Source: Vibrio casei
Lineage (GTDB): Bacteria > Pseudomonadota > Gammaproteobacteria > Enterobacterales > Vibrionaceae
Direction: 5' to 3'
Assembly (NCBI RefSeq): GCF_002218025.2
Contig: NZ_AP018683.1
Span: forward strand, 1-16,253
Length of the DNA: 16,253 nt
Shown: positions 1,462-13,779 of the stretch, piece after piece
How positions within the stretch are numbered: position 1 is the first letter of the stretch
How the letters are laid out: each line of letters begins with the position of its first letter
Position numbers and translations under genes: made by a program
Notes under the pieces: model-generated
Database searches by the model: none
What the model was told of the DNA's origin: nothing
The model's input: only the letters and a program-made list of their open reading frames with translations

Positions 1462-1514
1462 ACATAACGTCCATAAACTGCATTAATGAAAGTTTACTAT
1501 AGTAACCTTTCATT
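1462..1514. repeat. R repeat, copy R1 (leader plus hairpin)
   Basis: The leader at 1462-1492 is 28/31 identical to the leader of R4 (13728-13758) nearly 12 kb away and related to R2 (13045-13073). It is followed by a 30-bp dyad (1485-1514), AATGAAAG...CTTTCATT, that is perfect except for one pair. It sits between TA module 1 and TA module 2, just beyond the 3' ends of both. Confidence 0.8.
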
Positions 1515-1519
1515 GTTCT

Positions 1520-1804
1520 TTACCAAAAATCTGGTTGAGACATATTGGTAGGAAATACTCGCAATATTTCAATGCAATTATCTTTTACTCGATAAGGTAT
1601 TAAGTAAGGGAACCGCTGTAAGATAAGTTCTCGAGTGCCAAATACTCTTCCTGTTCTTCCCATTGCAGGATTTTCTTTGAGCAGTTCCATTAGATCGTAA
1701 ACTTCCTTAACAAAGTCTCTTGCTGCTTGAGGATTATGTTCATTTAAGTAATCCGCGGAATGTTCTAGGTTTAGTAATGCATTTTTGAGCCATTTAACCT
1801 GCAT
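1520..1804 (-). CDS. ParE-family toxin (TA module 2)
   Basis: This 94-residue protein shows the classical ParE layout. WLKNALLNLEHSADYL is the N-terminal helical pair, and NPQAARDFVKEVYDLMELLKENPAMGR is the region with the NPxMGR-like turn. RELILQRFPYLIPYRV and IEILRVFP form the C-terminal strands. Members of the family poison DNA gyrase or, in RelE-like branches, cut mRNA; the sequence alone does not decide which. The start ATG at 1804 lies 11 bases inside the upstream antitoxin gene, the usual coupling arrangement. No disruption is seen. The 3' end faces module 1, with R1 between them. Confidence 0.87.
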   Translation of the reverse strand: MQVKWLKNALLNLEHSADYLNEHNPQAARDFVKEVYDLMELLKENPAMGRTGRVFGTRELILQRFPYLIPYRVKDNCIEILRVFPTNMSQPDFW

Positions 1805-2033
1805 TCACGCCCCACTTAGAGAAAGTTTTTTTCACTTCACTATCAGTAGAAAACTGTCCAGAGTCTGCTTCATTAATAGCTTTTTTGATTTCATTGACCT
1901 GCCAAAGTTCGCGATCTAAGTAACTTTGAATGGCTTGGTTTGTTAGCCATGACTTTGTTCTACCTGTTGATTCAGCAAGTATGACTAATTTTTTTTCTAC
2001 TTCTTCAGGGATTCTAACGGACATAGACGGCAT
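1794..2033 (-). CDS. Ribbon-helix-helix antitoxin of the ParD/CopG type (TA module 2)
   Basis: This 79-residue protein has N-terminal MSVRIPEEVEKKLVILAEST and GRTKSWLTNQAIQSYL, a clear ribbon-helix-helix fold with DNA-contacting strand SVRIP. The C-terminal acidic tail (INEADSGQFSTDSEV) would bind the ParE-like toxin encoded next. GAGG twelve bases upstream of the ATG at 2033 supports this start, although a second Met follows three codons later. The dyad at 2049-2075 is the probable operator. Confidence 0.86.
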   Translation of the reverse strand: MPSMSVRIPEEVEKKLVILAESTGRTKSWLTNQAIQSYLDRELWQVNEIKKAINEADSGQFSTDSEVKKTFSKWGVNAG

Positions 2034-2048
2034 ACTTTTTACCTCTTT

Positions 2049-2075
2049 GTATTACGGTGTAATTATTGTAATACA
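2049..2075 (-). promoter_or_regulatory. Operator dyad of TA module 2
   Basis: TGTATTAC at 2049-2056 is the exact reverse complement of GTAATACA at 2068-2075. It is centred about 29 bases upstream of the antitoxin start, the usual place for the autoregulatory site of a ribbon-helix-helix antitoxin. A TGTAAT repeat lies inside the dyad. Confidence 0.65.
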
Positions 2076-2126
2076 GTGAAAGGGGATTTACTATAACGGC
2101 CATAGTGCGAACCCAGATTTAGACAC

Positions 2127-2156
2127 AAAAAAGCCTCCCCAAAGGGAGGCTTTTTT
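2127..2156. terminator. Bidirectional intrinsic terminator
   Basis: AAAAAAGCCTCCC (2127-2139) pairs with GGGAGGCTTTTTT (2144-2156) around CAAA. This strong hairpin with an A-run and a T-run can stop transcription both ways. The Tn3-family unit inserted one base after its T-run. Confidence 0.85.
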
Positions 2157-2161
2157 GTTTT
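2157..2161. repeat. Target-site duplication GTTTT, left copy
   Basis: The five bases before the outer terminal repeat at 2162 are GTTTT, matching the five bases after the outer repeat at 10790 (10791-10795). Tn3-family transposition makes 5-bp duplications and favours AT-rich sites. Confidence 0.8.
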
Positions 2162-2210
2162 GGGGTTCTAGGGATTTTCCCCTCTAAAGTAACATAAATC
2201 GCCACAACCC
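2162..2210 (+). repeat. Tn3-family terminal repeat, outer left (right-end type)
   Basis: It begins GGGGTTCTAGGGATTTTCCC and is identical over 49 bp to the reverse complement of 10742-10790. It shares only 43 bp with the internal copy at 6334. Its inner edge abuts truncated IS5 with one extra base between. It is therefore a remnant of the right end of a second, inverted transposon copy. Confidence 0.9.
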
Positions 2211-2211
2211 C

Positions 2212-2561
2212 ATGGTGGTGCGGTCCGGCAAGGCGCTATCCAGGGATAACCGGGCAAACAGACGCATGGAGGCGATTTCGTACAGAGCATCTTCCATCGC
2301 GCCATCGCTCAGGTTGTACCAATGCTGCATGCAGTGAATGCGTAGCATGGTTTCCAGCGGATAAGGTCGCCGGCTATTACCAGCCTTGGGGTAAAACGGC
2401 TCGATGACTTCCACCATGTTTTGCCATGGCAGAATCTGCTCCATGCGGGACAAGAAAATCTCTTTTCTGGTCTGACGGCGCTTACTGCTGAATTCACTGT
2501 CGGCGAAGGTAAGTTGATGACTCATGATGAACCCTGTTCCATGGCTCCAGATGACAAACAT
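2212..2561 (-). pseudogene. insH: IS5 transposase, N-terminal fragment
   Basis: Only about the first 115 residues survive of a DDE transposase that is normally 326-338 residues. The sequence [17 protein letters not shown] onward matches my recollection of E. coli InsH nearly residue for residue. One difference is visible: serine for glycine in [10 protein letters not shown]. After PDRTT the frame runs into the Tn3 terminal repeat and stops, adding a short foreign tail. The catalytic domain is missing, so it is non-functional. A + 1 frame reading of the same DNA is only a shadow. Confidence 0.92.
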
Positions 2562-12752: not shown

Positions 12753-13022
12753 GCAGCTCTTAATGTTGTTAAAAGCTTAAACCTACCTATGCCTTTAGCT
12801 AAAGGCATAGGTAGATCCATAGTTCTGCAATTAAGAGAGCAAGGGATTAGTAGTAAGGCTGCTAGTTGGGCAATACAAAGGTGGACGCATAGTGATGTGT
12901 ATCTGAATGCGGTTATCAACGGTAAACGTAGATTGAATTTGGATGGAACAGAAGCCGAATTAATCACTGATGCAGAAAGAGAATATTCACGTTCTATCCT
13001 TGAAGCGCGTAATTTAACGTAA
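12753..13022 (+). pseudogene. ProQ/FinO-family RNA chaperone, 5'-truncated
   Basis: From the edge of the IS, the frame reads AALNVVKSLNLPMPLAKGIG, then KAASWAIQRWTHSDVYLNAV, INGKRRLNLDG and ITDAEREYSRSILEAR. This follows the FinO/ProQ fold in order: PLxxGI, the helix with YTxSxxYLxAL, the R-x-D/N-LDG turn and the closing helix. The family binds structured RNAs; on plasmids FinO controls conjugation and relatives control plasmid or host mRNAs. The N-terminal part is missing and no clear 5' half is seen left of the IS. ATG at 12789 would give 77 residues but lies inside the domain and inside a palindrome. I score it as a fragment. Confidence 0.72.
12783..12814. repeat. Perfect 32-bp palindrome inside the ProQ/FinO fragment
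   Basis: The arm CTACCTATGCCTTTAG (12783-12798) is the exact reverse complement of 12799-12814, with no spacer. It covers the codons for LPMPLAKGIGR in the conserved core of the domain. No known site of this kind is recognised. Confidence 0.9.
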
Positions 13023-13049
13023 CGGCACTTAATACGAATTTAACGTAAC
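13011..13049 (+). repeat. Direct repeat of 13 bp around the ProQ gene end
   Basis: AATTTAACGTAAC occurs at 13011-13023 (covering the ProQ stop) and again at 13037-13049, 26 bp apart. The second copy runs into the R2 leader. It may be a protein-binding pair or a scar of a duplication. Confidence 0.7.
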
Positions 13050-13095
13050 ACCCGTAAGCTGCATTGAGGAAAGGTCGCCACTGGCGGCCTTTTTT
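13045..13095. repeat. R repeat, copy R2 (leader plus terminator hairpin)
   Basis: GTAACACCCGTAAGCTGCAT and onward (13045-13073) is related to the R1 and R4 leaders. The hairpin AAAGGTCGCC/GGCGGCCTTT (13070-13079/13083-13092, one G-T pair) is followed by T's. It ends the ProQ side and precedes the relBE promoter. Confidence 0.75.
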
Positions 13096-13119
13096 GTGTT
13101 GTGCTAAACTGTGCGTAAT

Positions 13120-13129
13120 TACAATTGTA
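13120..13129 (+). promoter_or_regulatory. relBE promoter/operator region
   Basis: TACAATTGTA (13120-13129) is a perfect palindrome, and its first six bases serve as a good -10 (TACAAT). A TTGTGC at 13099-13104 is a possible but short-spaced -35. AGGTG at 13135-13139 is the ribosome binding site for the antitoxin start at 13144. RelB-type autorepression through this site is inferred. Confidence 0.5.
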
Positions 13130-13143
13130 TATACAGGTGTGTT

Positions 13144-13383
13144 ATGGGAACCGTAAATATTAGAATTGATGATGATTTGAAATCTAGATCTTTTGAGGCT
13201 CTTGATGCTTTAGGTGTATCTCCGTCTGAGTTACTACGTCAAACACTTGAATATGTAGCTGTAAACCAGAAGCTGCCATTTAAAACGGTTTTGATTAATC
13301 AAGAAGATGAAGATTTAATTGCTTTAGTTCAATCTCGATTAAAATCACCACAAGCAGTAAAGGTTTCTTTGGATGACTTATGA
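13144..13383 (+). CDS. relB: RelB/DinJ-family antitoxin (TA module 3)
   Basis: This 79-residue protein starts MGTVNIRIDDDLKSRSFEAL and continues LGVSPSELLRQTLEYVA, then KLPF. The RIDDDLK strand, the LGxSxSELLR helix and the xLPF motif mark the RelB/DinJ ribbon-helix-helix family. The start at 13144 is preferred to the longer open frame from 13111 because homologues begin here and AGGTG precedes it. It overlaps the toxin gene by 11 bases. It neutralises RelE and represses the operon. Confidence 0.9.
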   Translation: MGTVNIRIDDDLKSRSFEALDALGVSPSELLRQTLEYVAVNQKLPFKTVLINQEDEDLIALVQSRLKSPQAVKVSLDDL

Positions 13384-13657
13384 TATTGAGTTTGATCGAA
13401 GAGCGTTGAAAGAATGGAAAAAACTGGATAGCGAGATACAAAAGCAGTTCAAAAATAAATTATCTAAACTCCTAGAGAACCCTAGAGTTGAAGCTAATAA
13501 GTTAAGAGAACTACCTGATTGTTATAAGATCAAATTAAGAAAATCAGGATATCGATTAGTTTACCAAGTTAAAGATGAGCGAGTGGTTGTTTTCGTAGTC
13601 GCCATTGGGAAAAGAGATAAATCAAAAGCATACAATGATGCCTCTGTCAGAGTGTAA
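13373..13657 (+). CDS. relE: RelE mRNA-interferase toxin (TA module 3)
   Basis: This 94-residue protein is closely similar to E. coli K-12 RelE along its length (FDxRALKEWxKL, ANKLRxxPDCYKIKLRxSGY, GYRLVYQV, GKRxxS). The residues used in mRNA cleavage by E. coli RelE are all kept at the same positions: K52, K54, R61, R81 and Y87. RelE enters the ribosomal A site and cuts mRNA when RelB is degraded. The gene looks functional. It is closed by the R3 hairpin. Confidence 0.93.
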   Translation: MTYDIEFDRRALKEWKKLDSEIQKQFKNKLSKLLENPRVEANKLRELPDCYKIKLRKSGYRLVYQVKDERVVVFVVAIGKRDKSKAYNDASVRV

Positions 13658-13660
13658 TTT

Positions 13661-13706
13661 ATCCAAAACTGCGTAGATTAAAGGTCGCCCTAGGCGGCCT
13701 TTTTTG
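13661..13706. repeat. R repeat, copy R3 (diverged leader, terminator hairpin)
   Basis: The leader ATCCAAAACTGCGTAGATT is only loosely like R1/R2/R4. The hairpin GGTCGCC/GGCGGCC (13683-13689/13693-13699) with T-run is almost the same as in R2. It terminates relBE. Confidence 0.7.
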
Positions 13707-13727
13707 TGACCGTATCTCGGGGGTTTA

Positions 13728-13779
13728 ACATAACGTCCATAAGCTGTATTGATGAAAGGTCGCCCTAGTGGCGACCTTT
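13728..13779. repeat. R repeat, copy R4 (leader plus perfect hairpin)
   Basis: The leader 13728-13758 is 28/31 identical to R1. The hairpin AAAGGTCGCC/GGCGACCTTT (13755-13764/13770-13779) is perfect. It lies at the 3' end of the minus-strand gene that stops at 13781 and may terminate it. Confidence 0.8.

Follow-up and report, generated by a model that had tools for sequence, protein, structure and literature searches.

How do the same small toxin-antitoxin (TA) gene pairs come to be carried by different small Vibrio plasmids, and do the repeats at their borders have a part in this? The question is posed by a 16,253-bp stretch of DNA, here called the window, which is the whole of contig C4 of a Vibrio casei genome and carries three TA pairs. 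An earlier sequence-only reading had described four copies of a repeat (R1 to R4), each a leader followed by a hairpin, at the edges of the TA genes, and had proposed either an unrecognised recombination site that shuffles TA cassettes or a family of terminators copied with them. Our analysis favours the first proposal, with the correction that the type of site is recognisable, dif/Xer-like and not wholly new. Five border sites in the window are probably Xer-type sites at which host XerC and XerD would recombine matching centres, so that the TA pairs become exchangeable.

The three pairs, identified with Pfam, are TA1 (944-1415, plus strand), with a DUF6290/TraY-like antitoxin and a ParE-superfamily toxin; TA2 (1520-2033, minus strand), with an RHH-like antitoxin (match slightly below the Pfam cut-off) and a ParE-superfamily toxin, and with homologs in other contexts; and TA3, or relBE (13144-13657, plus strand), with a RelB antitoxin and a RelE/ParE toxin. 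R1, R2 and R4 do lie at the borders of these genes. Of 31 leader bases, 28 are identical between R1 (1462-1492) and R4 (13728-13758), exactly as first read, and R2 is a copy as well (25/31 against R4), with its in-register start at 13043 and not at 13045. R3, taken for a further copy at 13661, agrees at 15/31 in register and has no leader; it is the relBE terminator (13682-13706, plus strand) with a half-site-like remnant upstream that lacks the XerD arm.

In R1, R2 and R4 the leader begins 5 bases earlier than first read and makes up a dif-like site of 28 bp: an XerD arm close to ATTTAACATAA and a divergent XerC arm, TAARCTGYATT, with a 6-bp centre between them. On the plus strand R1 reads ATTCTACATAA CGTCCA TAAACTGCATT (1457-1484, border between TA1 and TA2), R2 reads ATTTAACGTAA CACCCG TAAGCTGCATT (13038-13065, left border of relBE), and R4 reads GTTTAACATAA CGTCCA TAAGCTGTATT (13723-13750, right border of relBE). 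Two border sites with 6-bp centres were absent from the earlier description, both on the plus strand: one at 847-874, the left border of TA1, with XerD arm ATTGAACATAA, centre TGCTCA and XerC arm TATAGCGAACC, and one at 2086-2113, the right border of TA2, with centre CGGCCA. Also absent was a tandem dif-like site with a 7-bp centre, CGGCACT, at 13012-13040 (plus strand, 17/22), which overlaps R2 by 3 bases and the end of a ProQ-like open reading frame, whose stop codon lies within its XerD arm. TA1 (sites 847 and R1), TA2 (R1 and 2086) and relBE (R2 and R4) are each a gene module with a likely Xer recombination site (xrs) on both sides, as in the dif modules of Acinetobacter, and the sites keep to one strand throughout.

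The comparison with the host supports this assignment. The best dif match is ATTTAACATAA TATACA TAATGCGCACT on the first host chromosome and ATTTAACATAA GATACA TAATGCGAACT on the second; the window sites share with them a nearly identical XerD arm and the same 6-bp spacing, and differ in their plasmid location and in the diverged XerC arm of the R type. Scored with the host XerC arms only and a 6-bp centre, sites 2086 and 847 (both 18/22), R2 (17/22), and R1 and R4 (16/22 each) are the top five matches in the window, the next one having 15. When two further XerC arms from outside the host dif sites are admitted, R1 and R4 score 17/22 and R2 18/22, so that all five reach at least 17, whereas 60 dinucleotide shuffles gave 0.03 such matches on average and at most 1. 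Across the five borders the XerD arms match at 9-10/11 positions and the XerC arms at 7-9/11 (both at 9 in site 2086), and thus follow the rule that the XerD arm of xrs is the better conserved one (PMC11724359). The inner arm bases are described as conserved and often palindromic, ATAA-centre-TTAT (PMC11705084); here the XerD side keeps ATAA or GTAA, and the XerC side has TAAA, TAAG, TAGT or TATA, not TTAT. The centres of R1 and R4 are identical (6/6), that of 2086 differs from them at one position (5/6), and those of R2 and R4 agree at 3/6. Judged by their arms and spacing, R1, R2 and R4 are dif-like Xer sites with the XerD arm on the left and a divergent XerC arm on the right.

Are such sites peculiar to this plasmid? 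The exact R leader is rare: it was found in 2 of 329 family genomes (its own and one other), in one Vibrio record of a genome-contig collection (at two places) together with one match in an unrelated Scalindua metagenome-assembled genome, where about one chance match is expected by a rough estimate, and nowhere in a viral contig collection. The wider dif-like kind is common in the sampled Vibrionaceae plasmids. A replicon search with the region of the window that bears the PAGEV RNA matched 26 Vibrio and 4 Photobacterium plasmid records, 30 in all; 12 of these were taken, ten by replicon match (L020-L029) and two, L046 and L047, for a TA2 match. In nine of the replicon-picked plasmids (L020-L023 and L025-L029; L024, a near-copy of L023, was omitted from the motif tests) there are 12 sites at 17/22 or better, and none of the nine lacks one, whereas 300 permuted motifs yielded 0.19 on average and never more than 3. 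Extending the set to L046 and L047 gives 16 sites in eleven plasmids, against a mean of 0.21 and a maximum of 3 in 200 controls; this count is not fully independent, since those two were chosen for TA2, and the nine-plasmid repeat omits both of them as well as L024. R1, R2 and R4 fall below 17/22 in the eleven-plasmid scan because the single XerC arm used there differs from theirs. XerC arms learned from these plasmids entered the 7-bp survey, the TA2-context test, the comparison with L013 (a relative of the window plasmid), the orientation test and the block-end test, and were not used in the host-arm ranking, the window scan with the two further arms, or the nine- and eleven-plasmid counts. 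Counting the XerD arm alone in 19 records gave 58 matches against 6 for the reversed arm, in a set where some records had been picked for R-like matches and sites without a XerC arm were included.

Site midpoints are intergenic in 21 of 21 cases in 13 records (9.1 expected), as judged from the position of the midpoint relative to annotated genes in plasmid gene tables that are incomplete. At 18/22 or better, all sites lie on one strand in each of the 14 records that have at least two (35/35 comparisons); at 17/22 or better this is true of 14/16 records (47/49 comparisons), with one odd site each in L018 (4:1) and L030 (8:1). These comparisons are not independent, as the plasmids are often related and L053 is internally duplicated. 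There is also a second class of sites with a 7-bp centre, usually NNNCACT and often with a terminator; members resembling 13012-13040 occur in L023, L025, L046, L047, L048, L052 and L053.

Some further occurrences deserve a separate record. The 6.8-kb contig L053 (1-6808) has nine dif-like sites on a single strand and an internal duplication of 1.26 kb. Plasmid pPHDP10 has a dif-like match of 18/22 (L029:2638-2665), although PMC13347740 describes it as having no dif-like site. On the second-largest contig, G000:C2, two identical dif-like sites in opposite orientation lie 84 kb apart, at 510771 and 594878 (L005 and L007), both within a 1.8-kb inverted repeat of 95% identity, and at 565187, about 1 kb away from the contig's probable dif, there is a second dif-like site that faces the other way.

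If the sites are places of recombination, then we can ask: Do related plasmids change partners there? One comparison is with L013 (contig G171:C97). The window has no mismatch to L013 over 862-2164 (1,303 bp) and 12 mismatches in 1-861, seven of them in 839-861, so that the switch in identity falls in the centre (858-863) of site 847. From 12750 there is one difference up to 13067, and divergence begins at 13068, 3 bases beyond the end of R2 (13065); past this point the window has relBE and R4, and L013 has genes resembling parA and its partner.

TA2 provides a broader view, as it was found in eight contexts, with the window and L013 counted once. In six of them (window/L013, L012, L046, L050, L052 and the chromosome-sized contig L049) a dif-like site, accepted at a lenient cut of 16/22, has its XerD arm 0-37 bp away from the promoter end of TA2, and the site centre and the sequence beyond it differ among the six. 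The borders of TA2 thus vary between replicons, which for this pair speaks against a fixed gene order. The genome of the window has a second small contig, L012; its TA2 shows about 74% identity, and homology to the window stops at 2111, inside site 2086. In V. cholerae pSDH-2 (L046) an R-type XerC arm, TAAGCTGTATC, stands to the right of TA2. On the other side of TA2, sites with a 7-bp centre lie 81-175 bp away in L012, L046, L047 and L052 (the one in L052 is weak, a stronger one being at 245 bp); in L049 and L050 this side has R-like remnants, each with a hairpin. Mosaic boundaries fall at such sites more generally. In 21 records (L017, L019, L024, L030, L049, L051 and L057-L061 were omitted), 35 of 296 clustered ends of homology blocks lie within 20 bp of a site, where 5.3 are expected and 2000 rotations gave at most 15; 32 of the 62 sites have a block end within this distance.

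The alternative that survives best, though we regard it as unlikely, is that the sites are ordinary plasmid dimer-resolution sites, several of which were gained by cointegration, with no role in TA movement. Each of the nine small Vibrionaceae plasmids sampled has one or two dif-like sites, R1 and R4 with their identical centres could resolve dimers, and the sites resemble the cer/psi type in being xrs of 28-30 bp with a better conserved XerD arm and a centre of 6-8 bp (PMC11724359). In several plasmids a conserved intergenic block of about 200 bp adjoins the XerD side of a dif-like site (L016:2850-3071, L012:1638-1859, L025:4444-4667, L020:1849-2058 and L027:1025-1237), whereas the accessory block of ColE1 and pSC101 is described on the XerC side; no conserved accessory block was found beside R1, R2 or R4 in the plasmid homology comparison. 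Unlike cer/psi-type sites, those studied here occur several to a plasmid and at gene-module borders. The window has five sites with 6-bp centres, each at a TA border, although one suffices for dimer resolution, and different sites border TA2 in unrelated replicons.

The sites might also be substrates of a plasmid tyrosine recombinase and not of host XerCD, a reading to which we give little credence. The window encodes an Integrase_1 protein (15219-16178, minus strand; PF12835), present in L013 too, several sampled plasmids have other integrases, and an integrase could be supplied by another plasmid. Among 15 site-bearing plasmids four match PF00589, one of these also PF12835, and L025 (W05) has an annotated integrase that both profiles missed; the remaining ten have neither a PF00589 or PF12835 match nor an annotated integrase. 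Two genes named recombinase occur among those ten, a serine resolvase in L029 and, in L046, a protein resembling Mob_Pre below the cut-off. Sites thus occur with or without a plasmid integrase, which makes host XerCD the simplest candidate recombinase, and both arms of the sites resemble host dif. NCBIfam profiles identify host genes for XerD at 393.5 bits (cut-off 329.6) and for XerC at 349.8 bits (cut-off 335.15).

Equally improbable is the other half of the original proposal, that the repeats are intrinsic terminators copied with the TA genes, the leader being conserved through recent duplication. Each of the four R hairpins is more stable than its dinucleotide shuffles (z -3.85 to -5.86). 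In R2 (13069-13093, plus strand; -16.4 kcal/mol, z -4.9), R3 (z -3.85) and R4 (13754-13780; -16.8 kcal/mol, z -5.9) a strong GC-rich stem is followed by a T tract, as in an intrinsic terminator, and the collections scanned show the full R-type leader only within this plasmid lineage. R1 keeps the leader, yet its hairpin (1485-1514; -9.2 kcal/mol, z -5.1) is a near-perfect palindrome without a T tract; the leader fits host dif arms at the correct spacing; and at site 847 and in other plasmids the arms are present with a different adjacent hairpin or none. We thus reject the pure terminator reading for R1 and for the leader, and keep it for the hairpin half of R2-R4, so that the repeat joins a Xer-like site to a terminator. 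The hairpins had further been called covarying. They do remain paired in the window, but the stem is mismatched in the L013 copy of R2, the stems of R2, R3 and R4 are essentially one stem with a one-sided U-A/U-G wobble change, and that of R1 is unrelated, so that covariation was overstated. A hairpin beyond the XerC arm is also found at site 2086 (a terminator hairpin at 2125-2158; -24.2 kcal/mol, z -7.7), in L018 (7075 and 11659), in L019 (5970) and in L030 (19215, with a poor XerC arm). L030, which is Photobacterium profundum pPBPR1, matches R2 with its hairpin over 65 bp at 81.5%, from the XerD arm through the hairpin. The combination of a Xer-like site with a terminator therefore recurs in several plasmids and is not universal.

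Integron gene cassettes are small and often TA pairs, with structured borders, and the attC core pair is RYYYAAC ... GTTRRRY. The XerD arms of R2 and R4 (ATTTAAC and GTTTAAC) happen to fit RYYYAAC, but the R1 arm does not, the two-arm dif spacing explains the leader better, and direct inspection found no GTTRRRY partner after the hairpins of R1, R2 and R4 (the sequence-only reading had already called the attC core motifs absent), so that we reject an attC-like nature as extremely improbable.

We return to exchange by host XerC and XerD at the five border sites. Here a module would begin at the XerC arm of a site and end at the XerD arm of the site that follows, and an intrinsic terminator often stands immediately within its XerC side. 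XerC and XerD, perhaps still active on these sites today, would join sites with matching centres on co-resident plasmids into a cointegrate, which is then resolved; alternatively, recombination would take place between direct repeats within a single plasmid. TA pairs would in this way be gained, lost or swapped while neighbouring transcription is left undisturbed. Recombination between direct sites whose centres are identical or nearly so is described for Acinetobacter, where modules travel by way of cointegrates (PMC13141974, PMC11705084). By analogy, a crossover between R1 and R4 could divide the plasmid into two circles, one of 12,266 bp and one of 3,987 bp, the smaller of which would retain PAGEV, the integrase and TA1. 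As the centres of R2 and R4 agree at 3/6, relBE would be poorly excised between its own borders, and its arrival via a cointegrate is more likely.

Several observations weigh against this interpretation. The XerC arm of the R-type sites is far off consensus, the window plasmid has a tyrosine recombinase of its own, and the centres of R2 and R4 agree at only half of their positions. In PMC11705084, direct sites around a relBE pair gave no deletion in an assay, which cautions against assuming excision. The mismatches to L013 at site 847 form a 23-bp patch with homology on either side, which a local change, in place of a crossover, could also explain; and no site marks the far end (near 14452) of the replacement that begins at R2. 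In L047 and L051 the scan at 16/22 gave TA2 no site on its right, and at this cut two spurious matches also fall inside TA2 itself. Only one of the six window sites (2086) has a homology-block end within 30 bp, with none at R1, R2 or R4, and part of the block-end signal stems from the conserved block, about 200 bp long, that adjoins some of the sites, and this part reflects conservation and not exchange. Finally, five relatives of TA1 (in Proteus, Morganella and Aeromonas) and of relBE (in Aeromonas and Shewanella) have no flanking pairs of sites.

Other features of the window were recorded as well. Its ends adjoin each other in L013, so it is most likely a circular plasmid. PAGEV (14578-14796, plus strand; RF03037, 112.7 bits), a plasmid RNA that marks this plasmid family, was alone above the gathering threshold in an Rfam scan of the window. 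A Tn3-family transposon at 2162-10790, not present in L013, has perfect 49-bp inverted ends and a third, partial end copy at 6333; its transposase gene is interrupted by an IS3-like element (8764-9914), and its cargo includes a flavin mononucleotide (FMN)-dependent dehydrogenase gene and further transposase genes. An IS200/IS605-type element with a Y1 transposase and a TnpB-like gene occupies 10947-12749, and in its place L013 has about 1 kb containing the larger part of a second PAGEV-like copy and the front part of a ProQ-like gene. Beside a gene with a DUF3950 match, a TGTACATGTGCGCACATGT-like palindrome occurs three times at 14058-14363; these are possibly operator or partition sites. In L013 the plasmid backbone is broken by 5.7 kb (3387-9092) with feoA/feoB-like and other chromosomal-looking genes, which may be a real insertion or an assembly chimera.

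How does all this relate to known systems? Xer-site-flanked modules have mostly been found in Acinetobacter baumannii (PMC7399989), and the dif modules, or xrs cassettes with pdif sites, of Acinetobacter (PMC13141974, PMC11705084, PMC10132070) resemble our modules in that Xer sites of the 11-6-11 type mark the module borders, TA pairs are frequent cargo, centres vary and XerC arms depart widely from consensus; host XerCD (the probable recombinase here) and mosaic plasmids are common to both as well. TA2 has changing neighbours in its eight contexts, with a site on the right in six, as such a module should; the five TA1 and relBE relatives do not show this. Two differences stand out. Neighbouring Acinetobacter sites alternate in orientation, giving C and D modules, whereas the Vibrio sites are arranged head-to-tail; as almost all plasmids examined have their sites in a single direction, a module here is bounded by one C end and one D end. 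The second difference is that here a terminator often stands on the XerC side. The arrangement is thus Xer-type by sequence, and a variant, not a member, of the Acinetobacter dif-module system: its parts are known, namely dif modules with TA cargo, and its orientation rule differs. Titles and abstract openings yielded no report of dif modules in Vibrio plasmids, which is weak evidence of absence as the subscription literature lies mostly outside that search, and a 2026 paper calls XerC/XerD plasmid dimer resolution unreported in Vibrionaceae.

We propose, as a tentative extension that may well prove wrong, that Vibrionaceae plasmids have a Xer-module system of their own, distinct from that of Acinetobacter, in which same-direction composites of site and terminator delimit insulated cassettes, chiefly TA pairs, that host XerCD would add, remove or trade singly, integron-like but without an integrase. 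If the head-to-tail version in Vibrionaceae is real, the strategy of moving modules between Xer sites would be wider than Acinetobacter and workable one cassette at a time. It would also help to explain why the same TA pair recurs across different small Vibrio plasmids, some relatives of which carry resistance genes.

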